From Bacilli bacterium (lineage in GTDB: Bacteria; Bacillota_I; Bacilli_A; RF39; UBA660), in assembly GCA_028708945.1 (NCBI GenBank), contig JAQVXV010000010.1, positions 1-31,092 on the forward strand: 31,092 nucleotides of DNA, read 5' to 3'. The position numbers and the translations under genes are program-made. The notes below the pieces were generated by a model. It was not told the DNA's origin and did no database searches. It saw only the letters and a program-made list of their open reading frames with translations. Below are positions 10,483 through 28,662 of the stretch, in pieces (the first letter of the stretch is position 1; each line of letters begins with the position of its first letter).

Positions 10483-10504
10483 AAGCCATTTATTGGTTTT
10501 TTTT
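10481..10504 (+). terminator. clpC terminator
   Basis: AAAAGCCA (10481-10488) pairs with TGGTTTTT (10494-10501) with one G-U, followed by T's to 10504. Confidence 0.65.
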
Positions 10505-10539
10505 AATACTAAAATATAATGGCACTTTAGTAAAAAATA

Positions 10540-10548
10540 TGATAAAAT
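10540..10548 (+). promoter_or_regulatory. extended -10 promoter of the first pilin-adhesin gene
   Basis: TGATAAAAT at 10540-10548, 22 bases before the ATG, with no clear -35. The same block, with ATTATACTAAGGAGTGAC behind it, recurs before four more genes of the cluster, so promoter, leader and RBS are copied as one unit. Confidence 0.55.
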
Positions 10549-10570
10549 TATTATACTAAGGAGTGACCAA

Positions 10571-12115
10571 ATGAATAAAAAAGGTTTTACATTAATAGAG
10601 TTGTTATCAATTATAGTAATATTAGCCGTAATAGCTTTAATAGCGACTCCTAGAATCCTCGATTTAATTAGAAATAGTCAAATTAATTCTTTAATAATTA
10701 ATGAAAATATGTTAGTAAAAGCCGCTAAAACATATGTGGGAGCTAATAACAATATTTTGCCTGTTAATGTTGGTGAAACAAAAGAAATTTCTTTATCTAC
10801 CTTACATACTAATAATTATATAAGTAAAATTGTTTCTCCTTATGATAAAACAAAGGAATGTAATGGATATGTAATAATAACAAAGATAGAAGCTGAAAAA
10901 TATGATTATAGTCCACATTTAAATTGTATAAACAATATAGGTAATTCGACAGACGATGGATTAGTAGCACATTATAAGTTTAATGATTTTCAAGAACCTA
11001 CAGTAAATTTAGTTACCTTACCTTTTGATTTTTCAAGTGGATATTGGAAAAGTGCATCGTCATCTGTTATTAATAGCAAACTATTGAATTTTGATGAATC
11101 ATACACCGCTTGGACCTTTTCTGGTGGTGGGATTGCCAGAACTGGGACTCCGGCCACTTTAGGTTCTAAGTATACAACCACATGGTATATTAAAGCTGGT
11201 ACTGCAAATACAATATCAGTTAATTGGGGCGGTGCTCATCAAGGAACTAAAACAACATTTAAACTAAATTTGGAGACTGGTGTTGTTAGCGAACTTAATG
11301 TAATTGATGGTGAATATTATGAGGTTCATCCTGTTGCAAATGGCTTTTGGCAAATTTCATATTCCTCAACATTAATTTCTGGTACAAATTATTATCCTCA
11401 AATATCAACTGTTTCTGGAAGTGTAATATTGGGGGCTTTACAGATAGAGGCTAAACCATACGCTACTCCATTTGTCGAAGGAACACGCCATGGAACAGTG
11501 ACGGATTATTCTGGGCAAAACAAAAATGTTGATTTAACTTTAGATTTTACACCGAAATGGGAAAATGGTAGTTATTATTTTAATGGTAGTAATACATACA
11601 TTTTGCTTTCAAACGATATTATTTCTACATCAAATGCTAGATTGAAAGGAATTAGTTATTCTATTTGGATTAAACCGGAAAATATAAAAGAACAAAGGGT
11701 TTTGGGTCAACAAATTTCCGTAGGATATTCAGATTATTCAAATGGAGGTATTGGAATAAATAATGCTGGAAAACCAATGATGATTGCATATTCTGATCTT
11801 AATCCCGCGGCATATATATATGCCAGGGGGAGTACAACATTAAAGGTCAATGAATGGGTCCACATAGCTGGTGTATATGACAATAATAACTCTTTATTGA
11901 AAATATATGTTAATGGAAAATTAGACTCTTCACCAAGCGCGATAGGTTTATTTTCAAGATTGCATGAAACAACAACAAATCGAATTGGAAAAAAGGAACA
12001 CGCAAATACATATTTTTATAAAGGTTTTTTGGATGAGGTAAGGATATATAATAGGGTTTTAAACGATTCTGAAATTTGGAATATTTACTCTTCAGAATGG
12101 GGAAAATTTTATTAG
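10571..12115 (+). CDS. prepilin-like protein with C-terminal laminin-G-like domain
   Basis: 514 aa. Type III prepilin leader MNKKG with predicted cleavage before Phe6, Glu at mature position 5, and a hydrophobic helix to about residue 26. Residues 27-125 form a pilin stalk with Cys97 and Cys119 in CNGYV and PHLNC. Residues about 135-300 are a beta-rich region with Trp/Gly patterns ending in LGALQIEAKPYATPFVEGTR, a phrase known from phage-type fibre and carbohydrate-binding proteins. Residues about 335-510 are a concanavalin-like LamG domain (SYSIWIKPE, WVHIAGVYD, IYVNGKLD, FLDEVRIYNRVL). Likely exported and held at the surface by the pilin helix, binding glycan or protein; the ligand is unknown. 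Own promoter and AAGGAGTGA RBS; the next gene starts 36 bp on and may be cotranscribed. Confidence 0.85.
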   Translation: MNKKGFTLIELLSIIVILAVIALIATPRILDLIRNSQINSLIINENMLVKAAKTYVGANNNILPVNVGETKEISLSTLHTNNYISKIVSPYDKTKECNGYVIITKIEAEKYDYSPHLNCINNIGNSTDDGLVAHYKFNDFQEPTVNLVTLPFDFSSGYWKSASSSVINSKLLNFDESYTAWTFSGGGIARTGTPATLGSKYTTTWYIKAGTANTISVNWGGAHQGTKTTFKLNLETGVVSELNVIDGEYYEVHPVANGFWQISYSSTLISGTNYYPQISTVSGSVILGALQIEAKPYATPFVEGTRHGTVTDYSGQNKNVDLTLDFTPKWENGSYYFNGSNTYILLSNDIISTSNARLKGISYSIWIKPENIKEQRVLGQQISVGYSDYSNGGIGINNAGKPMMIAYSDLNPAAYIYARGSTTLKVNEWVHIAGVYDNNNSLLKIYVNGKLDSSPSAIGLFSRLHETTTNRIGKKEHANTYFYKGFLDEVRIYNRVLNDSEIWNIYSSEWGKFY

Positions 12116-12151
12116 CAAAAATTATATTATAAAATAAAGGATGAGGATTTG

Positions 12152-13351
12152 ATGAATAAGAAAGGTTTTACATTAATAGAGTTGTTATCAATTATAGTAA
12201 TATTAGCCGTAATAGCCTTAATAGCAACTCCTAGAATAACAGATGCTATTAATGAAGCAAGGGAAAAAGAGTATAGAATTCAAGAAAATTATATTTCTCG
12301 TGCTGCAATGAATTATGTGGCCGTTAATAGAGAATATATTCCAAATGCAATAGGACATATTAATATTATTAAATTAAATGAATTACAATCATCAAATATG
12401 ATAGATGAAATTTTTGATTCTAAAGATTCGTCTCAAAAATGCGATGGATATGTATATGTGGAAAAAGATGAAAATGTAGATTTAAAAACAAAGTCATTTT
12501 TGAAATGCGGAAGTAATTATGTTACTGAGGGCTATATCGAAAATGCATTTTTTCAAGTTGATTTTTTAGTAGTTGCCGGTGGCGGTGGAAGTGGTAGTGG
12601 TGACCGCGTTGGTGGTGGCGGAGCAGGTGGATTAATTTTTGCACAAAAAATAGTTAATGAAAAGATTAATGTCATTAATATAGGTGCAGGAGGAACAATA
12701 GAAAATAATGGTCAAAATTCCTCTGCTTTTGATTATATAGCAATTGGTGGCGGTGCTGGTGGTTGTTCATCAAATTCAATTAATTGCAATGATGGAAAAA
12801 ATGGAGGTTCTGGTGGTGGAGCAGGTAATGGATCATATTGGTATAACAACATAGGAACAATTATTCCTGGTGGTCTAGGAACTGCTAAACAAGGTAATGC
12901 AGGTGGAAATTCTACATATAGAACCCCTTATACTGGTGGTGGAGGCGGAGGCGCTGGTAGTCCTGGTGTAGATTTTAACCCTACAACAAATCTCAATGGT
13001 AATGGTGGCGATGGTTTGTATTTCGGTGATAAATTTGGAACATCATTTGGTCAAGAAGGATGGTTCGCAGGTGGCGGAGGCGGAGGGTGGTATGGTATCT
13101 CTGGCGGATTTGGTGGCCGTGGTGGTGGCGGTAATTCTAAATCAGCTAGTGTTCTTGTTTCACAGCCTGGTATGCCAAATACTGGAGGAGGTGCTGCTGG
13201 TAGAGGTGGTTCTGGCGGTTCTGGCATTGTATTAATCCGTTACTCAGGATCTCAAAAGGCTACTGGAGGGACAGTTATATCTGTAAATGGTTATACTATC
13301 CATGCTTTTATAGAAGTTGGGACACATACTTTTGAAGTTCTAGATTTTTAA
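12152..13351 (+). CDS. prepilin-like protein with glycine-rich C-terminal domain
   Basis: 399 aa from the ATG at 12152 (a TTG just upstream is unlikely). The first ~26 residues are almost the same as in the gene before, at DNA level too. Stalk residues 27-125 contain Cys97 and Cys119 (KCDGYV, LKCGSN). From about residue 135, VDFLVVAGGGGSG opens a glycine-rich domain with repeated GGGG loops between beta strands, closing with GGSGGSGIVLIRY and GYTIHAFIEVGTH. This pattern is the Gly_rich_2-like type known from fibre and surface proteins of phage and bacteria. It has no clear promoter (spacer 36 bp), so it may share the mRNA of the LamG-type gene. Adhesive role is inference. Confidence 0.83.
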   Translation: MNKKGFTLIELLSIIVILAVIALIATPRITDAINEAREKEYRIQENYISRAAMNYVAVNREYIPNAIGHINIIKLNELQSSNMIDEIFDSKDSSQKCDGYVYVEKDENVDLKTKSFLKCGSNYVTEGYIENAFFQVDFLVVAGGGGSGSGDRVGGGGAGGLIFAQKIVNEKINVINIGAGGTIENNGQNSSAFDYIAIGGGAGGCSSNSINCNDGKNGGSGGGAGNGSYWYNNIGTIIPGGLGTAKQGNAGGNSTYRTPYTGGGGGGAGSPGVDFNPTTNLNGNGGDGLYFGDKFGTSFGQEGWFAGGGGGGWYGISGGFGGRGGGGNSKSASVLVSQPGMPNTGGGAAGRGGSGGSGIVLIRYSGSQKATGGTVISVNGYTIHAFIEVGTHTFEVLDF

Positions 13352-13371
13352 AAACCTTTTCAAAGGTTTTT
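13351..13371 (+). terminator. terminator after the first glycine-rich pilin
   Basis: AAAACCTTT (13351-13359) and AAAGGTTTT (13362-13370) with a TC loop and trailing T; the left arm starts on the last base of the stop codon. Confidence 0.7.
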
Positions 13372-13436
13372 AATTTTTTAGATAATTTAATTAATAATAC
13401 TAATTTAAATATAATTTTTTAATTTATATAAAAATA

Positions 13437-13445
13437 TGATAAAAT
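13437..13445 (+). promoter_or_regulatory. extended -10 promoter
   Basis: TGATAAAAT, 24 bases before the ATG at 13470, followed by ATTATACTAGGGAGTGAC as RBS block. Confidence 0.55.
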
Positions 13446-13469
13446 AGTATTATACTAGGGAGTGACAAA

Positions 13470-14684
13470 ATGAATAAAAAAGGTTTTACATTAATAGAGT
13501 TGTTAGCAATTATAGTAATATTAGCCGTAATAGCATTAATAGCGACTCCTAGGATAACAGATGCTATTAATGAAGCAAGAGAAAAAGAATATAAAATCCA
13601 AGAAAATTATATTTCTAAGGCTGCCATGAATTTTGTAGCTGTCAATAGAGAATACATTCCAGATACAAAAGGATATATTAGTGTAGTTAAATTAAGTGAA
13701 TTACAAGCATCAAATATGATAGATGAAATTTTTGATTCTAAAGATTCGTCTCAAAAATGCGATGGATATGCCTATGTAAAAAAAGAGGAAACTGTTGATT
13801 TAAGAGTAACATCATTTATAAAATGCGGGAGTAATTATATTACTGAAGGTTATGTTGAAGAACCTCTTTCTAAAGTTGATGTTTTAATAGTTGCTGGTGG
13901 CGGCGCTGGTGGTAGTCATGTAACCCAAGTAGGTACGCAAACTGGATCAGGTGGTGGAGGTGCTGGGGGCCTTATATATAGAAGTGATTTTACAGTAGAT
14001 TCATTATCAAATATTGAAGTAATTGTTGGGGCAGGCGGAATTTCTCCTGAAACATTAGGTGCTGGTGAAAATGGCAGTAATTCTAAATTTGGGACATTTA
14101 TTGCAATTGGCGGCGGAGGCGGTGCACACAGAAACTCAGTTCCAAAATCTGGTGGTTCAGGTGGAGGGGTTAATTATAACTCGGCAACAGGTGGTAGTGG
14201 AACAGTAGGACAAGGATATGCCGGCGGTAATGGAGGTAGTTTTTATGGAGGTTCTGGCGGAGGAGGAGCTGCTGGACCAGGAGTAAATGCAACTGGAAAT
14301 AATGGTACTGCTGGTGGAAATGGTTTATACTATGGAAATATATTTGGTGATTCATATGGATCTTTTGGATATTTTGCTGGCGGAGGCGGCGGTGGTACAG
14401 GTAGCGGGACTTTTAATGGCACAGAAGGCTTAGGTGGCCTTGGTGGCGGCGGCAATGGTGGTAATAAGAGTAATGGAACATCAGGATTAATCAATACCGG
14501 ATCGGGTGGTGGCGGTTCAACTAGTCATGGATTCCGTGGTGGAAATGGTGGTTCAGGAATTGTATTAGTACGTTATCAAGGTCCGCAGAAAGCCAATGGA
14601 GGAACAATAACCTATCTAAATGGCTATACTATTCATGCCTTTACTGAGGTTGGAACACACACCCTTAAGATTTTAGATTTTTAA
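13470..14684 (+). CDS. prepilin-like protein with glycine-rich C-terminal domain (second copy)
   Basis: 404 aa. Leader MNKKG/FTLIE, helix to residue 26, and a stalk nearly identical to that of the previous gene (TDAINEAREKEYKIQENYIS) with Cys97 and Cys119. The glycine-rich domain (about 137-380) differs in its loops and order of GGGG blocks but keeps the frame VDVLIVAGGGAGG at the front and GGSGIVLVRY plus GYTIHAFTEVGTH at the end. So stalk and domain edges are conserved and the middle varies, as expected for paralogs that exchange or diversify binding loops. It has its own promoter and terminator. Confidence 0.83.
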   Translation: MNKKGFTLIELLAIIVILAVIALIATPRITDAINEAREKEYKIQENYISKAAMNFVAVNREYIPDTKGYISVVKLSELQASNMIDEIFDSKDSSQKCDGYAYVKKEETVDLRVTSFIKCGSNYITEGYVEEPLSKVDVLIVAGGGAGGSHVTQVGTQTGSGGGGAGGLIYRSDFTVDSLSNIEVIVGAGGISPETLGAGENGSNSKFGTFIAIGGGGGAHRNSVPKSGGSGGGVNYNSATGGSGTVGQGYAGGNGGSFYGGSGGGGAAGPGVNATGNNGTAGGNGLYYGNIFGDSYGSFGYFAGGGGGGTGSGTFNGTEGLGGLGGGGNGGNKSNGTSGLINTGSGGGGSTSHGFRGGNGGSGIVLVRYQGPQKANGGTITYLNGYTIHAFTEVGTHTLKILDF

Positions 14685-14686
14685 AT

Positions 14687-14710
14687 AAAAACCTTGAAAG
14701 AGGTTTTTTA
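14687..14710 (+). terminator. terminator after the second glycine-rich pilin
   Basis: AAAAACCT (14687-14694), 6-base loop, AGGTTTTT (14701-14708) and further T's. Confidence 0.7.
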
Positions 14711-14743
14711 TATTGAATAATTAATGTAAATAATAAAAAAGTA

Positions 14744-14752
14744 TGATAAAAT
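14744..14752 (+). promoter_or_regulatory. extended -10 promoter
   Basis: TGATAAAAT, 27 bases before the ATG at 14780; the leader has a small insertion (ATTGTTAGATACT) relative to sister genes. Confidence 0.55.
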
Positions 14753-14779
14753 TATTGTTAGATACTAAGGAGTGACAAA

Positions 14780-16267
14780 ATGGATAAAAAGGGTTTTACA
14801 TTAATAGAGTTGTTAGCAATTATAGTGATATTAGCCGTAATAGCATTAATAGCGTCGCCTAGAATAGTAGAAACAATCGAAAAATCAAGAATCGAATCTT
14901 ACAAACAAAATATGCAAACATTAATTGAAATTTCGAAAAAGTATGTGTTATTAAATAGGGCTAGGCTTGATTTGAAATTGGGTGAATCTATTGAAATAAC
15001 ATTAGCAGATTTAATAAATGCTGATTTAATAGATAAAATAGACAGCCCATGGGGTGATAATGGGTGCAATGGTTATATTATTGTAACCAAATTATCTGAT
15101 AAAGATATAGATTATAATCCTCATTTAAATTGTTTTGCAAATATTGGAGATAATAGTGAAGATGGTTTGATTGTTCATTATAAATTTGATGATTTTCAAG
15201 AACCAACAGAAAATATTGCAAATTTAAGGATTAGTGGTATGAATAACATTACTTATAAACAAGTTGGGAAGGAAAATGGTTATGATAAGTATTCTATTAG
15301 TGGAACTTGGAATTCTGGAAGTTATCCTTATTCATTTAATTTAGGTTCAAATTATTATAATGCTAATAAGAGTTATAGTGTTAGTTGTGAAATATATACA
15401 AATGTCAAAGAAAAATTCACCTCGGATTTTGGAGTAATAAATATAGTAAATGATTCTAATATGACAGGTTTAAGAACATTAGTTCGGAACGATAATTATA
15501 GTGCACGAATGGATTATATTCATAGTATTAATATGAGTAATCCAAGTTATATAATTTCAAGACCAATTGCAAATGGTACTACTTTTGATCCGAACACAGA
15601 TTTTGTTTATGTGAAAAATTATCAAGTAGAAGAAAAACCATATGCGACACCATATACATTTAGTATTAGGGAAGGAATTATAAAAGATTACTCTAGTAAT
15701 GGAAATGATGGGTTATTAGAAAAAACAACAACGCCAAGGTGGGTGGATAATTGTTATTCTTTCGATGGTTTTAATGATTTTATTGCACTAGATCAAGATT
15801 TTAATAATTTTGGTAATGAAGGTGATTTTTCAATAAGTGCATGGATAAAACCTAGCAATAATAAGAGGAGTGCTATTATTTCATCAGGGTATTTACAGAC
15901 TGAATATGGGAGATTTGGTTTATATTCAGATGGTGTATATGTAAGGGATGGTGGAAACAATCACATCAATGCTCTATCTGTTGATCACTTTGATAATAAA
16001 TGGCATCAAATTATTGGGGTATTCAATCGTTCTCAAAATAAGATAATATTTATTGTTGATGGTAAATTAAAATCATCAAGTAATTGGAATGGGACACTTT
16101 CTTATGATACAGGAGATATGAGTATTGGTAATCTTATTAGACCATCAGGGATCAATGAATTTTATTTTAATGGCTTAATTGATGATGTAAAAATGTATAA
16201 TAGAGCTTTAACTATAGAGGAAACAGAGAAAAATTATAACATTGATTTAGTAAATTATGTAAAATAA
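14780..16267 (+). CDS. prepilin-like protein with C-terminal laminin-G-like domain (second copy)
   Basis: 495 aa. Leader MDKKG/FTLIE and helix; stalk with Cys96 and Cys118 (CNGYI, PHLNC), then the linker DGLIVHYKFDDFQEPTEN shared with the first LamG-type gene. Residues about 150-295 are a beta-rich region ending in VEEKPYATPY. Residues about 330-490 are a LamG-like domain (DFSISAWIKPSNN, KWHQIIGVFNRS, FIVDGKLKSSS, FNGLIDDVKMYNRAL). The stalk past residue 30 is clearly closer to the next gene than to the glycine-rich ones. Binding partner unknown; surface display is inferred from the pilin leader. Own promoter; no clear terminator before the next gene. Confidence 0.84.
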   Translation: MDKKGFTLIELLAIIVILAVIALIASPRIVETIEKSRIESYKQNMQTLIEISKKYVLLNRARLDLKLGESIEITLADLINADLIDKIDSPWGDNGCNGYIIVTKLSDKDIDYNPHLNCFANIGDNSEDGLIVHYKFDDFQEPTENIANLRISGMNNITYKQVGKENGYDKYSISGTWNSGSYPYSFNLGSNYYNANKSYSVSCEIYTNVKEKFTSDFGVINIVNDSNMTGLRTLVRNDNYSARMDYIHSINMSNPSYIISRPIANGTTFDPNTDFVYVKNYQVEEKPYATPYTFSIREGIIKDYSSNGNDGLLEKTTTPRWVDNCYSFDGFNDFIALDQDFNNFGNEGDFSISAWIKPSNNKRSAIISSGYLQTEYGRFGLYSDGVYVRDGGNNHINALSVDHFDNKWHQIIGVFNRSQNKIIFIVDGKLKSSSNWNGTLSYDTGDMSIGNLIRPSGINEFYFNGLIDDVKMYNRALTIEETEKNYNIDLVNYVK

Positions 16268-16320
16268 TTAATATAAAGACTTTGTTTTTTAAGTGTGGTT
16301 AGTGAATTTTACTTAAAATA

Positions 16321-16329
16321 TGGTAAAAT
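16321..16329 (+). promoter_or_regulatory. extended -10 promoter
   Basis: TGGTAAAAT, 22 bases before the ATG at 16352, followed by ATTATACTAAGGAGTGAC. Confidence 0.55.
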
Positions 16330-16351
16330 TATTATACTAAGGAGTGACAAA

Positions 16352-17734
16352 ATGAGTAAAAAGGGTTTTACATTAATAGAGTTGTTAGCAATTATAGTAA
16401 TATTAGCCGTAATAGCATTAATATCATCACCTATGATAATTGAAACATTAGAAAATTCAAAGATATCAGCCCATATGCAAAATGAAAAAACGATGATCGA
16501 TGTGTCAAAAAAATATCTAGCAATTAATAATTTTCAATTTCCTTCTGAAATCGGTGAGACAATTGAAATAACTTTAGATGAATTAAGGGGAGCAAATTTA
16601 ATTGATAAAATTGAAAATCCATGGAATAAAAACGATTGTAATGGTTATGTTTTAGTAACAAAAATATTTGAACAAAGTTATGATTATACACCCCATTTAA
16701 ATTGTTTTAAGAACATTGAACGTAATAGTGATAATGAATTATTGTTACATTATAAATTAAATAAAAGTAGTCATAATCTAGGTAATGAATTAATTAAAAA
16801 TGGTGATTTTTCAAGTAATTTACACTGGATTAAGGGGGAGTCTTGGAATATAGCCAATGGACAAGCAACATCAGATGGTACAAATTCTTCATATAGTTCA
16901 TTAAGACAAACTATTCCTACTGAGATTGGAAAAACCTATTTAATAAGTTTTAATCTGATTGAAATTCATTCTGGGTTTGTAAAAATATGGCTGCCTGGCG
17001 ACTATATTCTTGGAGATCAAATTAATACACTAGGACAACATGAATATATAAAAACAGCAACTGCGGTTAATGAACAATTATTTATAGAGATTAGTCCGGG
17101 TTTTAGGGGCACTATTGATAATGTTTCAGTACGAGAATTAACGATTTTAGATTCATCAGCAAACAATAATTATGGTGTGATAAACAATGCGAAATTATCG
17201 GAAGATAAATATGGTAATAAAAACAGTGGTTTTGTATTTAATGGAACATCAAGTATAAATACAAACAAAAATGTTTTTTGGAATAATACAAATGATATTT
17301 CTATTAGTTTTTGGGTAAAACCTGCTACATTATCTTCAAATCTTGGAATAATAGGTGAAAAATTTTCAAGTTATGAATGGTCATTTTATCAATCGGGAAA
17401 TACACTAGGATTTGTTTATTGGAATAGTAGTGGAGGTCATACTAATGGAATGGATTTGAAGATTTCAAATGTTTTTTTTGTAAATAAATGGGTTCACGTT
17501 GTTTATGTTTGGGATAAAAATAAAAGCGATATTTTTATAGATGGAAAACTCGCAGGAACTAAGGTTGCTGTTAATTCTTTAATAAATAAAACAAGCGAGT
17601 CGCCAACGATGATTGGTGGAAATATTTATACATGGGGCGATTCATATTTTAGTGGGAATATTAGCGATGTCCGTATATATGGAAGAGTTTTATCTAACGA
17701 TGAGGTAAAAGTATTATACGAAACAACAAAATAA
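16352..17734 (+). CDS. prepilin-like protein with CBM-like and laminin-G-like domains
   Basis: 460 aa from the ATG at 16352, which has AAGGAGTGAC at the right distance; an in-frame ATG at 16295 would put 19 residues before the leader and has no RBS. Leader MSKKG/FTLIE, helix, stalk with Cys96 and Cys118. Residues about 140-260 read NELIKNGDFSSNLHWIKGES... to TIDNVSVREL, a jelly-roll of CBM_4_9-like carbohydrate-binding type. Residues about 285-455 are a LamG-like domain (DISISFWVKPATL, KWVHVVYVWDK, IFIDGKLAG, FSGNISDVRIYGRVL). Two possible sugar-binding folds on one pilin stalk argue for glycan adhesion, which remains inference. Confidence 0.84.
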   Translation: MSKKGFTLIELLAIIVILAVIALISSPMIIETLENSKISAHMQNEKTMIDVSKKYLAINNFQFPSEIGETIEITLDELRGANLIDKIENPWNKNDCNGYVLVTKIFEQSYDYTPHLNCFKNIERNSDNELLLHYKLNKSSHNLGNELIKNGDFSSNLHWIKGESWNIANGQATSDGTNSSYSSLRQTIPTEIGKTYLISFNLIEIHSGFVKIWLPGDYILGDQINTLGQHEYIKTATAVNEQLFIEISPGFRGTIDNVSVRELTILDSSANNNYGVINNAKLSEDKYGNKNSGFVFNGTSSINTNKNVFWNNTNDISISFWVKPATLSSNLGIIGEKFSSYEWSFYQSGNTLGFVYWNSSGGHTNGMDLKISNVFFVNKWVHVVYVWDKNKSDIFIDGKLAGTKVAVNSLINKTSESPTMIGGNIYTWGDSYFSGNISDVRIYGRVLSNDEVKVLYETTK

Positions 17735-17779
17735 GCATTTGATATTTTTTAAAAACCATTATGGATTTTAATAAAAATG

Positions 17780-17788
17780 TGGTAAAAT
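17780..17788 (+). promoter_or_regulatory. extended -10 promoter
   Basis: TGGTAAAAT, 22 bases before the ATG at 17811, followed by ATTATACTAAGGAGTGAC. A weak hairpin AAAAACCA/TGGATTTT lies just upstream (about 17750-17770) and may end the previous gene. Confidence 0.55.
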
Positions 17789-17810
17789 TATTATACTAAG
17801 GAGTGACAAA

Positions 17811-18971
17811 ATGAGTAAAAAGGGTTTTACATTAATAGAGTTGTTAGCAATTATAGTAATATTGGCCGTAATAGCATTAATAGCAACTCCTAGAATAACA
17901 GATGCTATCAATGAAGCAAGAGAAAAAGAATATAAAATCCAAGAAAATTATATTTCTAAGGCAGCTATGAATTTTGTAGCTGTTAATAGAGAATATATTC
18001 CAGATTCAACAGGACAAATTAATGTTGTTAAATTAAGTACATTACAAACATCGAATATGATAGGTGATGTTTTTGATCCTAGAAATTCATCCCAAAAATG
18101 TGATGGTTATGTATATGTAAAAAAAGGCGATAAAGTTGATGTAGAAACCCAATCATTTTTAAAATGTGAAAATAATTATGTTACGGATGACTATAGCATA
18201 ACTCCACTTTCAATTGTTGAAGTTTTAATCGTTGCCGGAGGCGGTAGTGGAGGAACAAGTAGAGGTGGTTCTGGCGGTGGCGGCGGTGGAGGTGCCGGTG
18301 GAGTAATTTATAATACAAACTATCAGCTTTCTTCTTCGCTTGTAGATTTAAAAGTAGGAGCAGGAGGACTTTCTAGAACGAAATTCTATGAATATGGGAT
18401 GAATGGTGAAGACTCATATTTTGATTTGCTTACAGCATTAGGTGGTGGCGGCGGCGGTATGTCTGGAGGCCCTGGGCTAGTAGGTGGTTCAGGTGGCGGG
18501 GCTGGATATAATGGTTATAAGTATCGAGCTGGTACTGAAGGTACTCCAAACCAAGGATATAAAGGCGGAGATGTTTTATATAATAACAACGGTGCCGGAG
18601 GCGGTGGAGCAGGAGGAAATGGTGGTAATACGACCGATACTGCTGGAGTTGCCGGTGGTGTTGCAGGAGCAGGAGGATTAGGATTAACTTTTTCTGTTAG
18701 TGGAGAAAACATTACATATGCTACTGGTGGTGGCGGCGGTGGTAATGGACAAACTTGCGGAAAACCCGGTTTAAACAATACTGGTAATGGTGGAAATGGT
18801 GTTTATGCTGCTTATTGTGCAAGTTCAGGAAGCGGTGGTTCTGGGATTATTATAGTTCGTTATCCAGGCATTCAAAAGGCTAACGGTGGAACTATTACCT
18901 CTATAGATGGGTATACTATACACACCTATACAGAAGTTGGAAATCATGTTTTCCAGGTTTTAGAATTTTAA
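17811..18971 (+). CDS. prepilin-like protein with glycine-rich C-terminal domain (third copy)
   Basis: 386 aa. Leader MSKKG/FTLIE; stalk with Cys97 and Cys119 that is near-identical over residues 1-65 to the gene at 13470 despite the two LamG-type genes between them. The glycine-rich domain (about 135-365) begins VEVLIVAGGGSGG and ends GSGIIIVRY and GYTIHTYTEVGNH. One Cys pair inside the domain (QTCGKPG and AAYCASSG) is not found in the two sister proteins. Own promoter and terminator. Confidence 0.83.
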   Translation: MSKKGFTLIELLAIIVILAVIALIATPRITDAINEAREKEYKIQENYISKAAMNFVAVNREYIPDSTGQINVVKLSTLQTSNMIGDVFDPRNSSQKCDGYVYVKKGDKVDVETQSFLKCENNYVTDDYSITPLSIVEVLIVAGGGSGGTSRGGSGGGGGGGAGGVIYNTNYQLSSSLVDLKVGAGGLSRTKFYEYGMNGEDSYFDLLTALGGGGGGMSGGPGLVGGSGGGAGYNGYKYRAGTEGTPNQGYKGGDVLYNNNGAGGGGAGGNGGNTTDTAGVAGGVAGAGGLGLTFSVSGENITYATGGGGGGNGQTCGKPGLNNTGNGGNGVYAAYCASSGSGGSGIIIVRYPGIQKANGGTITSIDGYTIHTYTEVGNHVFQVLEF

Positions 18972-18988
18972 CCAATATAATATTTATA

Positions 18989-19014
18989 AAAAGTCAATAT
19001 AATTGGCTTTTTTT
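18989..19014 (+). terminator. terminator after the third glycine-rich pilin
   Basis: AAAAGTCAAT (18989-18998) pairs with ATTGGCTTTT (19002-19011) with one G-U, then T's. The hairpin after the next gene (22251) is nearly the same. Confidence 0.7.
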
Positions 19015-19038
19015 ATTTCAAAACAATAAAATATGATG

Positions 19039-19044
19039 TATAAT
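19039..19044 (+). promoter_or_regulatory. -10 box of the 1061-aa gene
   Basis: TATAAT with TG directly in front; a second TATAAT at 19049-19054 would place the RNA start inside the RBS AGAGGTGAT. This leader differs from the block shared by the other cluster genes. Confidence 0.4.
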
Positions 19045-19066
19045 AAATTATAATAGAGGTGATAAA

Positions 19067-22000
19067 ATGAAAAGATTGAATGAAAAAGGATTTGCAACAT
19101 CAAGCATTATATATTCGTTGTTAATTCTTTTTGTTTTTTTAGCACTAGGTGTTTTAACATTATTTGCAAATAGTAAAATGGTTTTTGATAAAATGAAGAC
19201 CGACATGCTAGCCTCATTAAACGGAGTAGATAAAGTAGTTATAACTCCTAATGCTGAATATGTGGTAGCGGATTTTGGCAGTAAAGATGATATCTTATCA
19301 ACTTATTTTACTTTTAGATTAATTGGAGAAAGTCCAATATTAACAAAAGTATGTATAGATAAAAGTCGTTCAAATACTCAGGTAGTAAATGTTGAGGAAT
19401 TATCAATCGGTCAACATGAAATAGAATGTACAATAATAAAAGAAAATGGTTACAGTAAAAGTGCAACCATAAATATAACAATCGATTCAGATTATGTATG
19501 TAGTTCAGTAACAAATACAACAGGAGGTAAAATTGCTTTTGGAGACTATTTACTAGGAGATGAATATGAATGTAATCCTGGAGATGGAAATGGAAGAAGA
19601 TTTTATGTAATTGCTAGTAATTATGATAATGTAAGTTTAATAATGAATAAAAATATTGGTGACAATATTGAATATGATGCTAGTGGTGGAAACTTATTAA
19701 AAGAGGCAGAGACTCAATTAGTATCAAAAACAAATGATTGGACTTCGGCAACAGTAAGTTTTCCAACTAAAGATCAAATAATGACCTCAGTATTAGGAAG
19801 TTCACCAAATACATTAAATGAATATTCATTTAATAAATCAAATTATGAATGGATATTGACAAATACAAATTGTTTTAATAGGAGCTGTAGTGATGAAGGA
19901 ACTACAGATACAACTTTAGGATATTGGATCAGTGGATCAGTATCTGATGGAAAAGCTTGGACTGTAGACTATAACGGCAAGTTTATTAGAGAAAACACAA
20001 ATATAATAACTAAAGGAGTAAGACCAGTAATAACAGTTAATAAAACAGATATATACAACGCTTTAGAGGCAATCGATATTCCATTAATAACTGTAACACC
20101 AAGTAGTGGATGGTCACCAGGAAAAAACGTAACAATTTTATTTCCGGCTAGAATGTATGAAGTTGATTATGAATATAGTACAAATGGGATAAACTGGATA
20201 ACGTTAGATCCAAGCGAAAGAATAGCAAATGTTCCATTTACAGAAGATGGATATGTTGTAGCAAGAATGATGGTAGATGACAAATTAATTCATTCAGTTA
20301 CAACAAATATAGGTAATATTGATACAAATTACCCTGTTATTGTAGCAAATCAAACAACAGGTATAGAGGTAAAAAATCTAAATTTAAATATATTCTCATC
20401 ATATGTAACAGCAACAAATGTCGGACCTTCACCTGTTTTTTCAAAGATATGTACAGATACAAATCATGCTTCTGCTATTATAACAAATGTAAATCAAATG
20501 ACTGCAATCGGAATGCATAATCTAACTTGTACAATAACAAAAGAGAATGGGTTAAGTAGAAGTGTTAACATTTCAATTGAAATCTTTAATAGAGAATACG
20601 TATATAATTATAATGGTTACTATTCAACTTTTGTGGCACCTAAAACAGGATATTATAATTTAGAAGCTTGGGGAGCGAGTGGTGGAAATAGTGTAGGAAA
20701 TGATTCGAATGCTTGTCCTGTTGGTACATCATATGGGTCTGGTTGTGGTGGCGGCGGTTCTTATGCTCAAGGTGCAATTTTATTAAATCAAGGTGAAACA
20801 ATATATGTATATGTAGGATCTAGAGGAAAAGATGGTATTGTTAGTGGAATTGCTCCAGGTGGTTACAATGGAGGAGGAAACGGGGAGTACGATCATAGTG
20901 ATAATGAAGCCGGCGGAGGCGGAGGAGGAGCTACAGATTTTAGATTGGTGTCTGGTTCATGGAATTATTCAACAGGTTTAAGATCAAGAATAATGGTTGC
21001 AGCAGGTGGTGGTGGCGCATCAGATATTTATCCCGGTGGACCAGGTGGGGCTCTAAGTAGTGTTGTAACTAGGTTTTCACCACCAGCTACACAGACAAGC
21101 GGAAATGCATTTGGAATAGGACAAAATGCTATATATCATACAGCGAACATAGAATCTGGCGGTGGTGGTGGTGGATATTATGGTGGATATTCATATGCAT
21201 CAGACCCGGCCAATAATGGTAGTTATGGTCACACTGGTACAGGTGGATCTTCATTTATTTCTGGTTGTGTTGGATGTAACGCTGTTAATTCGAGTGGTGT
21301 GCATACAGGAAATTCAACACATTATTCAGGGAAGGTATTTACGAATATAATAATGAAATCAGGCTTAGAGGAAATGCCTGTACAAATGGGACCGGGTACG
21401 ACAGTAGGAAACCATGGGAATGGTTTTGCAAAGATAACGTATCTTGGTAACAATTCATTAGGAATTGGAGAAAATGTAGAATATGTACATAATGGAAGCA
21501 CACAAACTTTTGTATCACCAGTAACAGGTAAATATAAGCTTGAAGTATGGGGTGCTAGTGGTGGCGGATACACCTCATCGTATGCAACAAACGGTGGACG
21601 AGGTGGATATTCAGTCGGAACAGTTAATTTGAATGTCGGAACAATATTATATATTTATGCAGGTGGCGAAGGTGGTTACAATAATACCAACGGTGGTTTT
21701 AATGGTGGCGGAAATTCTAAGTCATATGGTGGTTCCGGAGGCGGGGCATCAGATATTAGGATTGGAACCGATTCTTTATATTCCAGGGTAATTGTCGCTG
21801 GTGGCGGCGGCGGTGCTGGCTATACTACAAGAATAGGCGGTTATGGTGGAGGAACTTATGGTGGAGATGGAGATCCTGGAACAGCAACTCCCGGAGGTGG
21901 AGGAACTTCAACTTCTGGAGGGACAACAGGTTCAACAGGTGTAATTGGTGTATTCGGTGGAGCCCAAGATCGTTCAAGTGGTGCTGGCGGAGGCGGCGGT

Positions 22001-22252
22001 GGCGGCTGGTATGGCGGTGGGTCTGGTATGAGCAGTGGCTCCGATTCTGGCGGTGGTGGCGGTTCGGGTTATGTATATACGTCGGCTACTGCTAGTCAAT
22101 GTCCATCAGGTTGTTTATTAGTGCCATCATATTATTTATCAGGCGCATCAACTTATAGAGGAAATACAACGTTTTTAAGCCCTGAAGGTAATAACGCTGT
22201 TGGCCATACTGGAAACGGATATGTCCGAATAACATTAATTTCGCAAAGTTAA
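19067..22252 (+). CDS. large prepilin-like surface protein with two ALK-type glycine-rich domains
   Basis: 1061 aa. MKRLNEKG/FATSS then a hydrophobic segment to about residue 34: a prepilin-like leader in which mature residue 5 is Ser, not Glu, as in some tip (GspK-like) pseudopilins. Residues 60-140 and about 425-508 are copies of one beta repeat, each with a Cys pair (96 and 121 in the first; VCID...IECTI versus ICTD...LTCTI). Residues about 145-340 resemble a DUF6273/FGE-like lectin module (GYWISG...KAWTVD...GVRPVI). Residues 340-425 look Ig-like. Two PF12810-type glycine-rich domains follow, about 510-790 and 803-1061, each starting YxYN/HxG...FVAPKTGYYNLEAWGASGG-like. It may cap the fibre or act as the largest adhesin; role is inference. 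Confidence 0.82.
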   Translation: MKRLNEKGFATSSIIYSLLILFVFLALGVLTLFANSKMVFDKMKTDMLASLNGVDKVVITPNAEYVVADFGSKDDILSTYFTFRLIGESPILTKVCIDKSRSNTQVVNVEELSIGQHEIECTIIKENGYSKSATINITIDSDYVCSSVTNTTGGKIAFGDYLLGDEYECNPGDGNGRRFYVIASNYDNVSLIMNKNIGDNIEYDASGGNLLKEAETQLVSKTNDWTSATVSFPTKDQIMTSVLGSSPNTLNEYSFNKSNYEWILTNTNCFNRSCSDEGTTDTTLGYWISGSVSDGKAWTVDYNGKFIRENTNIITKGVRPVITVNKTDIYNALEAIDIPLITVTPSSGWSPGKNVTILFPARMYEVDYEYSTNGINWITLDPSERIANVPFTEDGYVVARMMVDDKLIHSVTTNIGNIDTNYPVIVANQTTGIEVKNLNLNIFSSYVTATNVGPSPVFSKICTDTNHASAIITNVNQMTAIGMHNLTCTITKENGLSRSVNISIEIFNREYVYNYNGYYSTFVAPKTGYYNLEAWGASGGNSVGNDSNACPVGTSYGSGCGGGGSYAQGAILLNQGETIYVYVGSRGKDGIVSGIAPGGYNGGGNGEYDHSDNEAGGGGGGATDFRLVSGSWNYSTGLRSRIMVAAGGGGASDIYPGGPGGALSSVVTRFSPPATQTSGNAFGIGQNAIYHTANIESGGGGGGYYGGYSYASDPANNGSYGHTGTGGSSFISGCVGCNAVNSSGVHTGNSTHYSGKVFTNIIMKSGLEEMPVQMGPGTTVGNHGNGFAKITYLGNNSLGIGENVEYVHNGSTQTFVSPVTGKYKLEVWGASGGGYTSSYATNGGRGGYSVGTVNLNVGTILYIYAGGEGGYNNTNGGFNGGGNSKSYGGSGGGASDIRIGTDSLYSRVIVAGGGGGAGYTTRIGGYGGGTYGGDGDPGTATPGGGGTSTSGGTTGSTGVIGVFGGAQDRSSGAGGGGGGGWYGGGSGMSSGSDSGGGGGSGYVYTSATASQCPSGCLLVPSYYLSGASTYRGNTTFLSPEGNNAVGHTGNGYVRITLISQS

Positions 22253-22275
22253 AAGTCAATTATATTGACTTTTTT
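22251..22275 (+). terminator. terminator after the 1061-aa gene
   Basis: AAAAGTCAAT (22251-22260), loop TAT, ATTGACTTTT (22264-22273) and more T's. Confidence 0.8.
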
Positions 22276-25959: not shown

Positions 25960-26343
25960 ATGAGAAAAGGATTTACTTTAATTGAATTGTTAGCAGTAAT
26001 CATTATTATAGCCATTATTGCATTAATAACAACGCCAATTATTATCGGTGTAATTACTAACTCAAAAAAAGAATCTATAATAAGAAGCGCTGAATATATT
26101 GCTAGAGCAGCACAAAATGCATATTTAGATAATCAAGCAAAAATACCTTCTGAAAGAACTTTAATGCCAATATCCCAAGGTGGAAATGAATATGAAATTA
26201 GTCAATTAGACTTAGATAATCCACCATTATCGGGAACTTTTATAGTTGATCAAAATAATTACGACATAACCGTAAATAATGCTGTTTTTGAAGAATATAC
26301 TTGTAGTGGAACTGTTGCTAATATGGCTTGCGTTAAGAATTAA
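25960..26343 (+). CDS. small type IV pilin-like protein
   Basis: 127 aa. Leader MRKG, cleavage before Phe5, Glu at mature position 5 and a hydrophobic helix to about residue 30. A helical linker follows, then DLDNPPLSGTF and a C-terminal Cys pair (Cys115 and Cys124, C-x8-C). It is the most diverged of the six small pilins: Thr-Thr-Pro rather than Ala-Ser-Pro after the helix and a different C-x-C loop length. RBS GAAGGT. Could be a minor subunit or an older paralog. No terminator before the next gene. Confidence 0.85.
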   Translation: MRKGFTLIELLAVIIIIAIIALITTPIIIGVITNSKKESIIRSAEYIARAAQNAYLDNQAKIPSERTLMPISQGGNEYEISQLDLDNPPLSGTFIVDQNNYDITVNNAVFEEYTCSGTVANMACVKN

Positions 26344-26402
26344 GAAAATCGTATAAATTTCAATTAATAGTAAAAGATATTAATGTATAGAAAGGAATTT
26401 AT

Positions 26403-26759
26403 ATGAAAAAAGGTTTTACATTAATAGAATTATTAGCAGTAATTGTTATTTTGGCTATAATTGCCTTAATAGCATCACCAATCGTAGTAGGTTTAATTGA
26501 AGATGCAGATCGTCAAGCAGCAGAAAGAAGTACAGAAGCAGTAGTAAATGCTGCTAAGACTAGATATGCTCTTAGTCAAATGAATCCAACAGAATACTCT
26601 TTAGTGACAGATGCTTCACTAATAGAAGTTGATAATCCTCCTACATCAGGAACTATTGCCTATGGAACAACTGGTCAAATAACGCTTTCAAATGTTATAA
26701 TCGGTGATTATAGTTGTGCTTATACAACAGCTACTAAGGCAACATGCACTAAACAATAG
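26403..26759 (+). CDS. small type IV pilin-like protein
   Basis: 118 aa. Leader MKKG/FTLIE; helix LLAVIVILAIIALIASPIVV; then GLIEDADRQAAERSTEAVV, shared with the genes downstream. C-terminal Cys105 and Cys115 (C-x9-C) would close a small disulfide loop, as the D-region does in type IV pilins. Motif VDNPPTSGTI precedes the last strands. RBS AAAGGA. A possible promoter TTGCGT-18-TATAAA (26328-26357) overlaps the end of the previous gene. Confidence 0.87.
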   Translation: MKKGFTLIELLAVIVILAIIALIASPIVVGLIEDADRQAAERSTEAVVNAAKTRYALSQMNPTEYSLVTDASLIEVDNPPTSGTIAYGTTGQITLSNVIIGDYSCAYTTATKATCTKQ

Positions 26760-26809
26760 AAGATATATATCTATATTAAATGAGCCATAATTTTTTTTAA
26801 AATAATGGG

Positions 26810-26847
26810 CAATGTAAATATATTTATTATTTATATTGTTTTTTTTT
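26810..26847 (+). terminator. terminator between small pilin genes
   Basis: CAATGTAAATA (26810-26820) pairs with TATTTATATTG (26828-26838) with one G-U, then a T9 run. Confidence 0.8.
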
Positions 26848-26855
26848 AGTTAAAG

Positions 26856-26864
26856 TGTTATAAT
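26856..26864 (+). promoter_or_regulatory. extended -10 promoter
   Basis: TGTTATAAT, 9 bases after the upstream terminator's T-run and 32 bases before the ATG at 26897. Confidence 0.6.
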
Positions 26865-26896
26865 TCAGTTAGATTATAAAGTAAGGTGGTGATGAA

Positions 26897-27271
26897 ATGA
26901 AAAAAGGTTTTACATTGATAGAATTATTAGCAGTAATCGTAATTTTAGCAATAATCGCTTTAATAGCTTCACCAATTGTAGTAGGTTTAATTGAAGATGC
27001 AGATCGTCAAGCAGCTGAAAGAAGTACTGAAGCAGTAGTAGAAGCAGCTAAAACAAGATTTGCCCAAAATCAAATTGATCCATCAACATATCCTATAGTA
27101 ACTACCGCTAGTCCACTTGTTCTTCTTCAAGCGTCAGCTTTACCATTAGATAATAAACCAACAGGAGGAACTGTTGCATATGGTTCAAAAGGGGAAGTAA
27201 CATTAGCAGGTATAAAATTTGGAAAATATACATGCACTTATACAGCAGCGGCTGGAGCAGCTTGCAGTTAA
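26897..27271 (+). CDS. small type IV pilin-like protein
   Basis: 124 aa. The first ~46 residues equal the previous pilin (through ERSTEAVV). The middle is ~6-10 residues longer than in its neighbours (a loop with TASPLVLLQASALP). It ends with LDNKPTGGTVAYGSKGEVTL and Cys113/Cys123 (C-x9-C). RBS AAGGTGGTGAT. Alone between its own promoter and terminator. Likely a fibre subunit; which of the six is the main one cannot be told. Confidence 0.87.
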   Translation: MKKGFTLIELLAVIVILAIIALIASPIVVGLIEDADRQAAERSTEAVVEAAKTRFAQNQIDPSTYPIVTTASPLVLLQASALPLDNKPTGGTVAYGSKGEVTLAGIKFGKYTCTYTAAAGAACS

Positions 27272-27290
27272 TTCTACTATATGATAATTA

Positions 27291-27311
27291 AAACTCTTAA
27301 AGAGTTTTTTT
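27291..27311 (+). terminator. terminator, copy 1 of a repeated hairpin
   Basis: AAACTCT/AGAGTTT with T7; the same hairpin and its flank (ACTATATGATAATT) recur at 27743 and 28198. Confidence 0.75.
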
Positions 27312-27319
27312 ATAAAAAG

Positions 27320-27348
27320 TTGAAAAAAATTTTAGTTAGTGATATAAT
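27320..27348 (+). promoter_or_regulatory. strong promoter of a pilin gene
   Basis: TTGAAA (27320-27325), 17-bp spacer ending TGA, TATAAT (27343-27348). Extended -10 plus a good -35: stronger than those of the large pilin genes, in line with a major subunit. Confidence 0.75.
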
Positions 27349-27378
27349 CAAAATAGAAAATAGGATGGTGGTGATAGA

Positions 27379-27723
27379 ATGAAAAAAGGTTTTACGTTGA
27401 TAGAATTGTTAGCAGTAATCGTAATTTTAGCAATAATCGCTTTAATAGCTTCGCCAATTGTAGTAGGTTTAATTGAAGATTCAAATAGACAAGCTGCAGA
27501 AAGAAGTACTGAAGCAGTAGTACAAGCTGCTAAAACAGAATTTGCATTAAGTAAACTGAATAAAACTACGCCTTCAGCGACTGCTGCAGGTCTAGACTTA
27601 GATAATGCACCAACAGGAGGGACTGTTACATATGGTTCAAATGGCGAAATAACACTATCGGGTGTGGTATTCGGAAAATATACATGTACTTATACAGCAG
27701 CGGCTGGCGCAAAATGTAGTTAA
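27379..27723 (+). CDS. small type IV pilin-like protein, identical copy A
   Basis: 114 aa, shortest of the set. MKKG/FTLIE leader and helix, GLIEDSNRQAAERSTEAVVQ, short loop, DLDNAPTGGTVTYGSNGEITL, Cys103 and Cys113 (C-x9-C). Alanine- and glycine-rich tail (TAAAGAKCS). Identical in DNA to the next gene, which with the strong promoter suggests dose: it is the best candidate for a major subunit. Confidence 0.88.
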   Translation: MKKGFTLIELLAVIVILAIIALIASPIVVGLIEDSNRQAAERSTEAVVQAAKTEFALSKLNKTTPSATAAGLDLDNAPTGGTVTYGSNGEITLSGVVFGKYTCTYTAAAGAKCS

Positions 27724-27742
27724 TTCTACTATATGATAATTA

Positions 27743-27764
27743 AAACTCTTAAAGAGTTTTTTTT
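27743..27764 (+). terminator. terminator, copy 2
   Basis: AAACTCT/AGAGTTT with T8. Confidence 0.75.
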
Positions 27765-27774
27765 ATAAAAAAAG

Positions 27775-27803
27775 TTGAAAAAAATTTTAGTTAGTGATAT
27801 AAT
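27775..27803 (+). promoter_or_regulatory. strong promoter, duplicate
   Basis: TTGAAA (27775-27780), 17 bp, TGA-TATAAT (TATAAT 27798-27803), as in copy A. Confidence 0.75.
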
Positions 27804-27833
27804 CAAATTAGAAAATAGGATGGTGGTGATAGA

Positions 27834-28178
27834 ATGAAAAAAGGTTTTACGTTGATAGAATTGTTAGCAGTAATCGTAATTTTAGCAATAATCGCTTTAA
27901 TAGCTTCGCCAATTGTAGTAGGTTTAATTGAAGATTCAAATAGACAAGCTGCAGAAAGAAGTACTGAAGCAGTAGTACAAGCTGCTAAAACAGAATTTGC
28001 ATTAAGTAAACTGAATAAAACTACGCCTTCAGCGACTGCTGCAGGTCTAGACTTAGATAATGCACCAACAGGAGGGACTGTTACATATGGTTCAAATGGC
28101 GAAATAACACTATCGGGTGTGGTATTCGGAAAATATACATGTACTTATACAGCAGCGGCTGGCGCAAAATGTAGTTAA
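27834..28178 (+). CDS. small type IV pilin-like protein, identical copy B
   Basis: 114 aa, same DNA and protein sequence as the gene at 27379-27723 over all 345 bases. Absence of even silent changes means a very recent duplication or continuing gene conversion. Own promoter, RBS and terminator as in copy A. Confidence 0.88.
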   Translation: MKKGFTLIELLAVIVILAIIALIASPIVVGLIEDSNRQAAERSTEAVVQAAKTEFALSKLNKTTPSATAAGLDLDNAPTGGTVTYGSNGEITLSGVVFGKYTCTYTAAAGAKCS

Positions 28179-28197
28179 TTTTACTATATGATAATTA

Positions 28198-28218
28198 AAA
28201 CTCTTAAAGAGTTTTTTT
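28198..28218 (+). terminator. terminator, copy 3
   Basis: AAACTCT/AGAGTTT with a T-run; marks the right limit of the duplication, after which the flanks diverge. Confidence 0.75.
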
Positions 28219-28237
28219 ATTGTCAAATATTGTCAAA
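28218..28237 (+). promoter_or_regulatory. 10-bp tandem direct repeat, possible operator
   Basis: TATTGTCAAA twice in a row, just upstream of the -35 box. It reads TGTCAAA-TAT-TGTCAAA, one base per half-site away from the CtsR consensus RGTCAAA-NAN-RGTCAAA. Absent from the other pilin promoters. Confidence 0.4.
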
Positions 28238-28242
28238 ATCGG

Positions 28243-28272
28243 TTGAATTTTTTAGATATATAATGATATAAT
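28243..28272 (+). promoter_or_regulatory. promoter of the last small pilin gene
   Basis: TTGAAT (28243-28248), 18-bp spacer ending TGA, TATAAT (28267-28272). Confidence 0.65.
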
Positions 28273-28305
28273 CAAAATAGAATAATTGATGGGTGGTGAT
28301 GAAAT

Positions 28306-28662
28306 ATGAAAAAGGGTTTTACGTTGATAGAATTATTGGCAGTAATTGTAATTTTAGCAATAATCGCTTTAATAGCCTCACCAATTGTAGTAGGTTTAAT
28401 TGAAGATTCAAATAAACAAGCAGCAGAAAGAAGTACTGAAGCGGTAATAAAAGCTGCTAAAACTCAATATGCATTAAGTCAAATGAATGATGAATATGAT
28501 GAACCAACAACTTATACAGATTTAGATTTAGACAATCCCCCAACAGGAGGAACAGTTTCCTTTGATGCAAATGGAGATGTAGTATTAACAGGTGTAAAAT
28601 TCGGAAATTACACATGTGCTTATACAAAAGCAGCAGGTGTAACATGTACTAAAAATCCATAA
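28306..28662 (+). CDS. small type IV pilin-like protein
   Basis: 118 aa. MKKG/FTLIE leader and helix, GLIEDSNKQAAERSTEAVIK, a loop with an acidic stretch (NDEYDEPTTYTD) not found in the sisters, LDLDNPPTGGTVSF, Cys104 and Cys114 (C-x9-C). RBS GGTGGTGAT. Its promoter alone has the TATTGTCAAA repeat, so it may be controlled differently from the duplicated pair. Confidence 0.87.
   Translation: MKKGFTLIELLAVIVILAIIALIASPIVVGLIEDSNKQAAERSTEAVIKAAKTQYALSQMNDEYDEPTTYTDLDLDNPPTGGTVSFDANGDVVLTGVKFGNYTCAYTKAAGVTCTKNP

Follow-up and report, generated by a model that had tools for sequence, protein, structure and literature searches.

The window analysed here, 31,092 nucleotides from contig JAQVXV010000010.1, carries seven large open reading frames (ORFs) in a row at positions 10571–22252, all present on the + strand as a first-pass annotation of this DNA had reported. 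We propose that this array, g1 to g7, probably encodes modular minor pilins of a type IV pilus, which would carry bulky binding heads at its tip and whose repertoire would be diversified by recombination. In g1 to g6, a prepilin leader is joined through a stalk to either a LamG or a glycine-rich head, while g7 has a prepilin-like leader and two glycine-rich domains of another family. LamG modular pilins are an already published class: a 2021 survey reported >1,200 modular pilins with 264 architectures and names PF13385 among their domains (PMC8179133). As far as literature searches show, three features are apparently new: pilins with glycine-rich heads of the phage-fibre type, an array of this size, and its mosaic structure with head turnover.

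Leaders, stalks and heads of the array proteins

The class III leader, with its Gly and Glu5, scored above the curated N_methyl cut-off (PF07963) in six of the seven proteins (25.6, 27.1, 26.8 and 24.8 bits in g1, g2, g5 and g6, respectively), and Glu5 is present in the same proportion. E10 is invariant in two alignments, A1 with 64 rows and A2 with 33. The first-pass annotation had assigned a prepilin leader to all seven proteins; this holds for g1–g6, but the leader of g7, KGFATSSIIY, is only prepilin-like, with Ser in place of Glu5, and gave no N_methyl match even with a maximum E-value of 5. Structures predicted for two of the seven proteins, g3 and g4, both contained a pilin-type long helix (residues 8–58) and a small β module, with strands extending to approximately residue 119. 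Sequence searches of the PDB returned pilin helices for g3, solely pilin helices plus a weak match to the gene transfer agent (GTA) head spike fibre for g1, and no match for g7.

The LamG-like heads previously noted on g1 (10571..12115), g4 (14780..16267) and g5 (16352..17734) matched PF13385 far beyond chance (5.3e-25, 1.8e-18 and 7.8e-27). Residues 142–303 of g1 also match GTA_spike_fiber (NF048003), a GTA head-spike-fibre domain, with 51.5 bits against a cut-off of 36. In the g4 model, a strand at residues 130–134 is followed by a jelly-roll-like stretch (~150–284) and then by the remainder of the LamG domain; our reading of this predicted structure is that the LamG head may be split by an inserted jelly-roll-like domain. 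Structure comparison of the array heads gave a fold match to the arabinan-binding domain of AbnA. The numerous toxin-binding-domain matches in the fold comparison reflect the shared jelly-roll fold, and nothing points to a toxin.

The glycine-rich heads of g2 (12152..13351), g3 (13470..14684) and g6 (17811..18971) were likewise confirmed: these three of the seven proteins matched Gly_rich_2 (PF21722) above its cut-off (2.2e-15, 1.3e-20 and 1.1e-20). The predicted fold of the g3 head is that of phage tail-fibre glycine-rich domains, and a comparison with viral models gave 120 matches at E ≤ 0.001. Similar folds occur in Pam3 gp24 (PMC9608196) and S16/PP01 gp38 (PMC12892980), and in the Bxb1 tail tip (9d93). 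As in the phage domains, the glycines are conserved and the residues in between are variable: identity to the query averages 0.83 in the 86 Gly columns, versus 0.37 in the 146 other columns. Unlike in phages, these putative binding heads sit on a cellular pilin rather than on a virion fibre. No paper linking pilins with these domains turned up among the titles listed in the literature searches, although Dataset S1 of PMC8179133 may list such pilins. Neither PF13385 nor PF21722, the extra C-terminal domains found above cut-off, is specific to pili.

The seventh protein (g7, 19067..22252) had been described as a composite of β repeats and glycine-rich domains. We read Ig/HYR-like segments in it, and two glycine-rich domains are indeed present (~residues 513–790 and 806–1061), but they belong to the ALK/LTK family (ALK_LTK_GRD, PF12810, 2.9e-87) and not to Gly_rich_2. 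They differ from that family in standing on a prepilin-like protein, in tandem and in variable number.

Six small pilin-like genes, which the first-pass annotation had left out of its array, lie at 25960..28662 on the + strand (starts at 25960, 26403, 26897, 27379, 27834 and 28306; 114–127 aa) and are candidates for the subunits of the filament body. The three that were scanned (25960, 26403 and 28306) all exceeded the N_methyl cut-off. Two of the genes, 27379–27723 and 27834–28178, are identical in DNA (345/345 nt), which is a very recent duplication or conversion.

Mosaic structure and head turnover

The first 84 nt of g1–g6 are nearly alike, and five of the six genes (all but g2) also have in common ~45 nt upstream, with a ribosome-binding site and what reads as an extended −10-like motif. 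This 5′ cassette, in which the upstream stretch is followed by leader and helix, is exemplified by 10526..10655 (+ strand) and recurs before 13470, 14780, 16352 and 17811. Residues 1–35 are 69–89% identical between head classes. Over residues 36–125, the identity is 70–77% among the glycine-rich pilins and 43–51% among the LamG pilins, but 22–30% between the classes. The heads had been called interchangeable; leader and helix are shared between classes, but the stalk body is coupled to the head class, and the heads are thus not freely swapped.

We counted silent differences at codons specifying the same residue, using mature codon numbering. Between LamG and glycine-rich pilins they amounted to 20/200 (0.10) in codons 1–24, compared to 87/210 (0.41) in codons 36–125. 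The corresponding counts were 7/64 and 43/126 within the LamG class, and 8/70 and 41/198 within the glycine-rich class; between big and small pilins, 372/669 (0.56) differed. Since the likeness of the helix codons extends to silent sites, selection at the protein level alone is insufficient to explain it; recent spread, gene conversion or a constraint at the DNA level would fit.

A comparison of 12 proteins from three contigs, the window's and two others, separated the effects of genome and head. Helix residues 1–28 were 83.0% identical between proteins assigned to the same genome with different heads (13 pairs), versus 57.6% between proteins of different genomes with the same head (23 pairs). 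For the remainder of the stalk, the order was reversed (26.6% versus 37.0%). This bears on whether there is a filament at all. The helix could instead remain a membrane anchor, in which case the array proteins would be cell-bound surface binders of a monoderm, where the heads would presumably be exposed anyway, and the lack of Glu5 in g7 would be in keeping with such a role. We consider this unlikely, because the helix tracks the genome and not the head, as expected for packing in the cell's own filament, because Glu5 in six of the seven proteins and the invariant E10 have been retained, and because small pilins are encoded nearby.

In the related array L001, from a Tissierellia metagenome-assembled genome (MAG), the stalks of s2 and s3 are 97% identical (362/375 nt), against 88% for the corresponding window pair, and the heads match at 426/582 nt. 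The stretch upstream of the second L001 gene is nearest to that of g2 (88%). The second glycine-rich head (of s2) shares 60–61% identity with its counterparts in g2 and g3, and the third is 97% identical to that of g3 over the part present.

Five relatives were found for the first 520 residues of g7. The domain sets of its alleles are X+Z in the window, Y+Z in P0239, Y+X+Z in contig C63 (start missing) and Z alone in P0240, which has also lost the preceding segment, whereas segments of ≥50 residues outside the variable domain are 87–98% identical. Another relative, P0241 (1801 aa), has four or more ALK-type glycine-rich domains, as judged by BLAST and reading. These strain differences, and those of L001, might be assembly artefacts of repeated domains in an array that is itself stable: the sequences come from few metagenome contigs, the glycine-rich domains are repeats, and C63 (position 3 of L011) and protein P0242 both start at g7 residue 417, beside the module skipped by P0240, which reflects either population variants or an assembly branch. 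However, the Y domain of P0239 is a different domain and not a collapsed copy (137/247 identical to the window X domain, whereas C63 has a Y domain matching it at 251/265), and the s2 head has only the identity given above to g2 and g3. We therefore regard the artefact as improbable.

Proposed assembly and comparison with known systems

The closest counterparts are PilB (vWA) and PilC (lectin), modular minor pilins with demonstrated binding in Streptococcus sanguinis type IV pili (PMC8179133, PMC9934059). Like the array proteins, they combine a class III leader, a short pilin module and a large C-terminal binding module in a monoderm, and PilC carries its ConA-like lectin module behind another domain. 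The array differs in having six or seven head-bearing proteins rather than two, in its phage-fibre-type glycine-rich heads, in the similarity of its helices between head classes, and in the turnover of its heads.

From PilB and PilC, we infer that each array pilin would be inserted in the membrane, that a prepilin peptidase would cut it behind the leader Gly, and that the common N-terminal helix would pack it into a type IV pilus with a body made of the small pilins. The bulky heads would fit only at or near the tip, where surface binding would occur. The LamG and jelly-roll heads would most likely target polysaccharides, and the phage-fibre-type heads other surface receptors; the earlier suggestion of host glycans is without support. 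Recombination would keep the promoter, leader and helix cassette alike within a genome, and stalk-plus-head units and head domains would be duplicated, replaced or lost. PilA and the tip-capping K subunit are described as lacking Glu5 (PMC9934059), and g7 could on that account be a tip or initiating subunit, which is a guess. Overall, the sequences, the two predicted structures and the binding-type folds of the heads favour the first-pass picture of a pilin platform displaying different heads, with the reservations that g7 is only prepilin-like and that stalk and head are coupled. That the proteins instead serve as pseudopilins in a short filament for secretion or competence, their heads handling secreted substrates or DNA, is very unlikely given the large, binding-type heads and the many paralogues, and no gsp or comG operon was recognised on reading the 26 window ORFs.

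The PilV shufflon of plasmids R64/TP114 likewise joins a constant pilin part to alternative C-terminal adhesin parts that select the target, but there a tyrosine recombinase switches one gene, whereas the array has whole genes side by side (PMC9045228). Reading the 26 window ORFs, without a family scan of them all, revealed no site-specific recombinase. None of the 25 longest of 122 inverted pairs in the window fitted shufflon-like sites, although very short sites could escape, and the pair with the closest match consists of two terminator-like hairpins. An invertible switch is thus without support from the inverted-repeat search. More tentatively, the array may be a multigene pilus repertoire of phage-tail-tip-type heads, in which gene conversion matches the cassette to the cell's own filament and strains trade stalk-head units and tandem head domains with one another. 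It would then be an equivalent of the shufflon that works without a dedicated recombinase.

If this is true, a receptor-binding fold is common to pili and phages, and the array is a readable example of an adhesin repertoire evolving under filament constraint, with the packing part kept alike within a genome and the exposed part varying. It would allow a test of what in a modular pilin determines the filament joined, and would point to what an uncultured bacterial group attaches to. The array looks like an evolving toolkit for surface attachment.

Gene layout, relatives and host

The window has a G+C content of 29.3%. The array is flanked by a clpC-like gene and an HD-domain gene, beyond which lie valS, the six small pilin-like genes and lepA (HD, valS and lepA from reading of translations). 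As we read the upstream DNA, the starts originally given at 12152 and 16352 have better ribosome-binding sites than those of the ORF caller (12149 and 16295). g2 begins 36 nt after g1 ends, without the promoter-like stretch common to the other five. Among the stretches folded, we read terminator-like hairpins after clpC, g2, g3, g6 and g7 but not after g1, g4 and g5; several transcription units are therefore likely, g1–g2 being one. Window-wide counts of promoter-like sites (152, versus 108.4 in shuffles, standard deviation 12.6) and terminator-like sites (7 versus 6.0, standard deviation 2.7) were not used as evidence. g7 is flanked by two inverted 24-nt stretches that are 96% complementary (18988–19011 and 22251–22274), each arm being itself a terminator-like hairpin.

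Among the 120 relatives of g3 listed out of 1917 found, at least 30 combine N_methyl and Gly_rich_2 (two from the window and one from L001); among the 118 new proteins listed for g4 out of 1167 found, at least 72 combine N_methyl and LamG (three from the window), both counted by eye. The organism was named in nine listed rows for g4, seven being Bacilli or Mollicutes and two the Tissierellia MAG of L001. Bin G001 (of JAQVWY010000141.1, Tissierellia MAG STF2_113) has two valS genes, one 96% and the other 51% identical to that of the window, and is therefore a mixture of the window's species and a second organism. Since the named relatives are mostly Bacilli or Mollicutes and the Tissierellia bin is mixed, the array probably belongs to an uncultured bacterium of the Bacilli.

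In this mixed bin, on contigs that may belong to either organism, matches to T2SSE lie above the cut-off on C105 (three) and C73 (one), with two more below it, and an A24 peptidase on C105 only. Tetranucleotide correlations were 0.36–0.53 between C105 and the window halves and 0.53–0.64 between C105 and C73, while the window halves correlate with each other at only 0.52. Just 5/299 genomes around G001 (itself included) matched g4 at 1e-8, and in a set of 398 genomes no valS outside G001 exceeded 59% identity to the window's; the genomes sampled around G001 are thus of the wrong lineage.

Viral contigs gave 30 loci for A1 and 23 for A2; judging from the coordinates, most of these match the helix alone or a glycine tail, and no second array was seen in the five loci inspected. 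On one viral contig (L039), which also has a small pilin gene, 9723–11414 reads as a protein resembling the ALK-type glycine-rich head of g7. L037, a contig from a viral collection that also has genes resembling hisS and asnS, is probably bacterial and encodes a giant pilin-led protein (9416–15124, 1902 aa, with a prepilin leader at its start). Three further pilin-led proteins of 277–286 aa (P0231, P0234 and P0238) carry a dockerin domain (PF00404) in their annotation and may represent a dockerin linked to a pilus.
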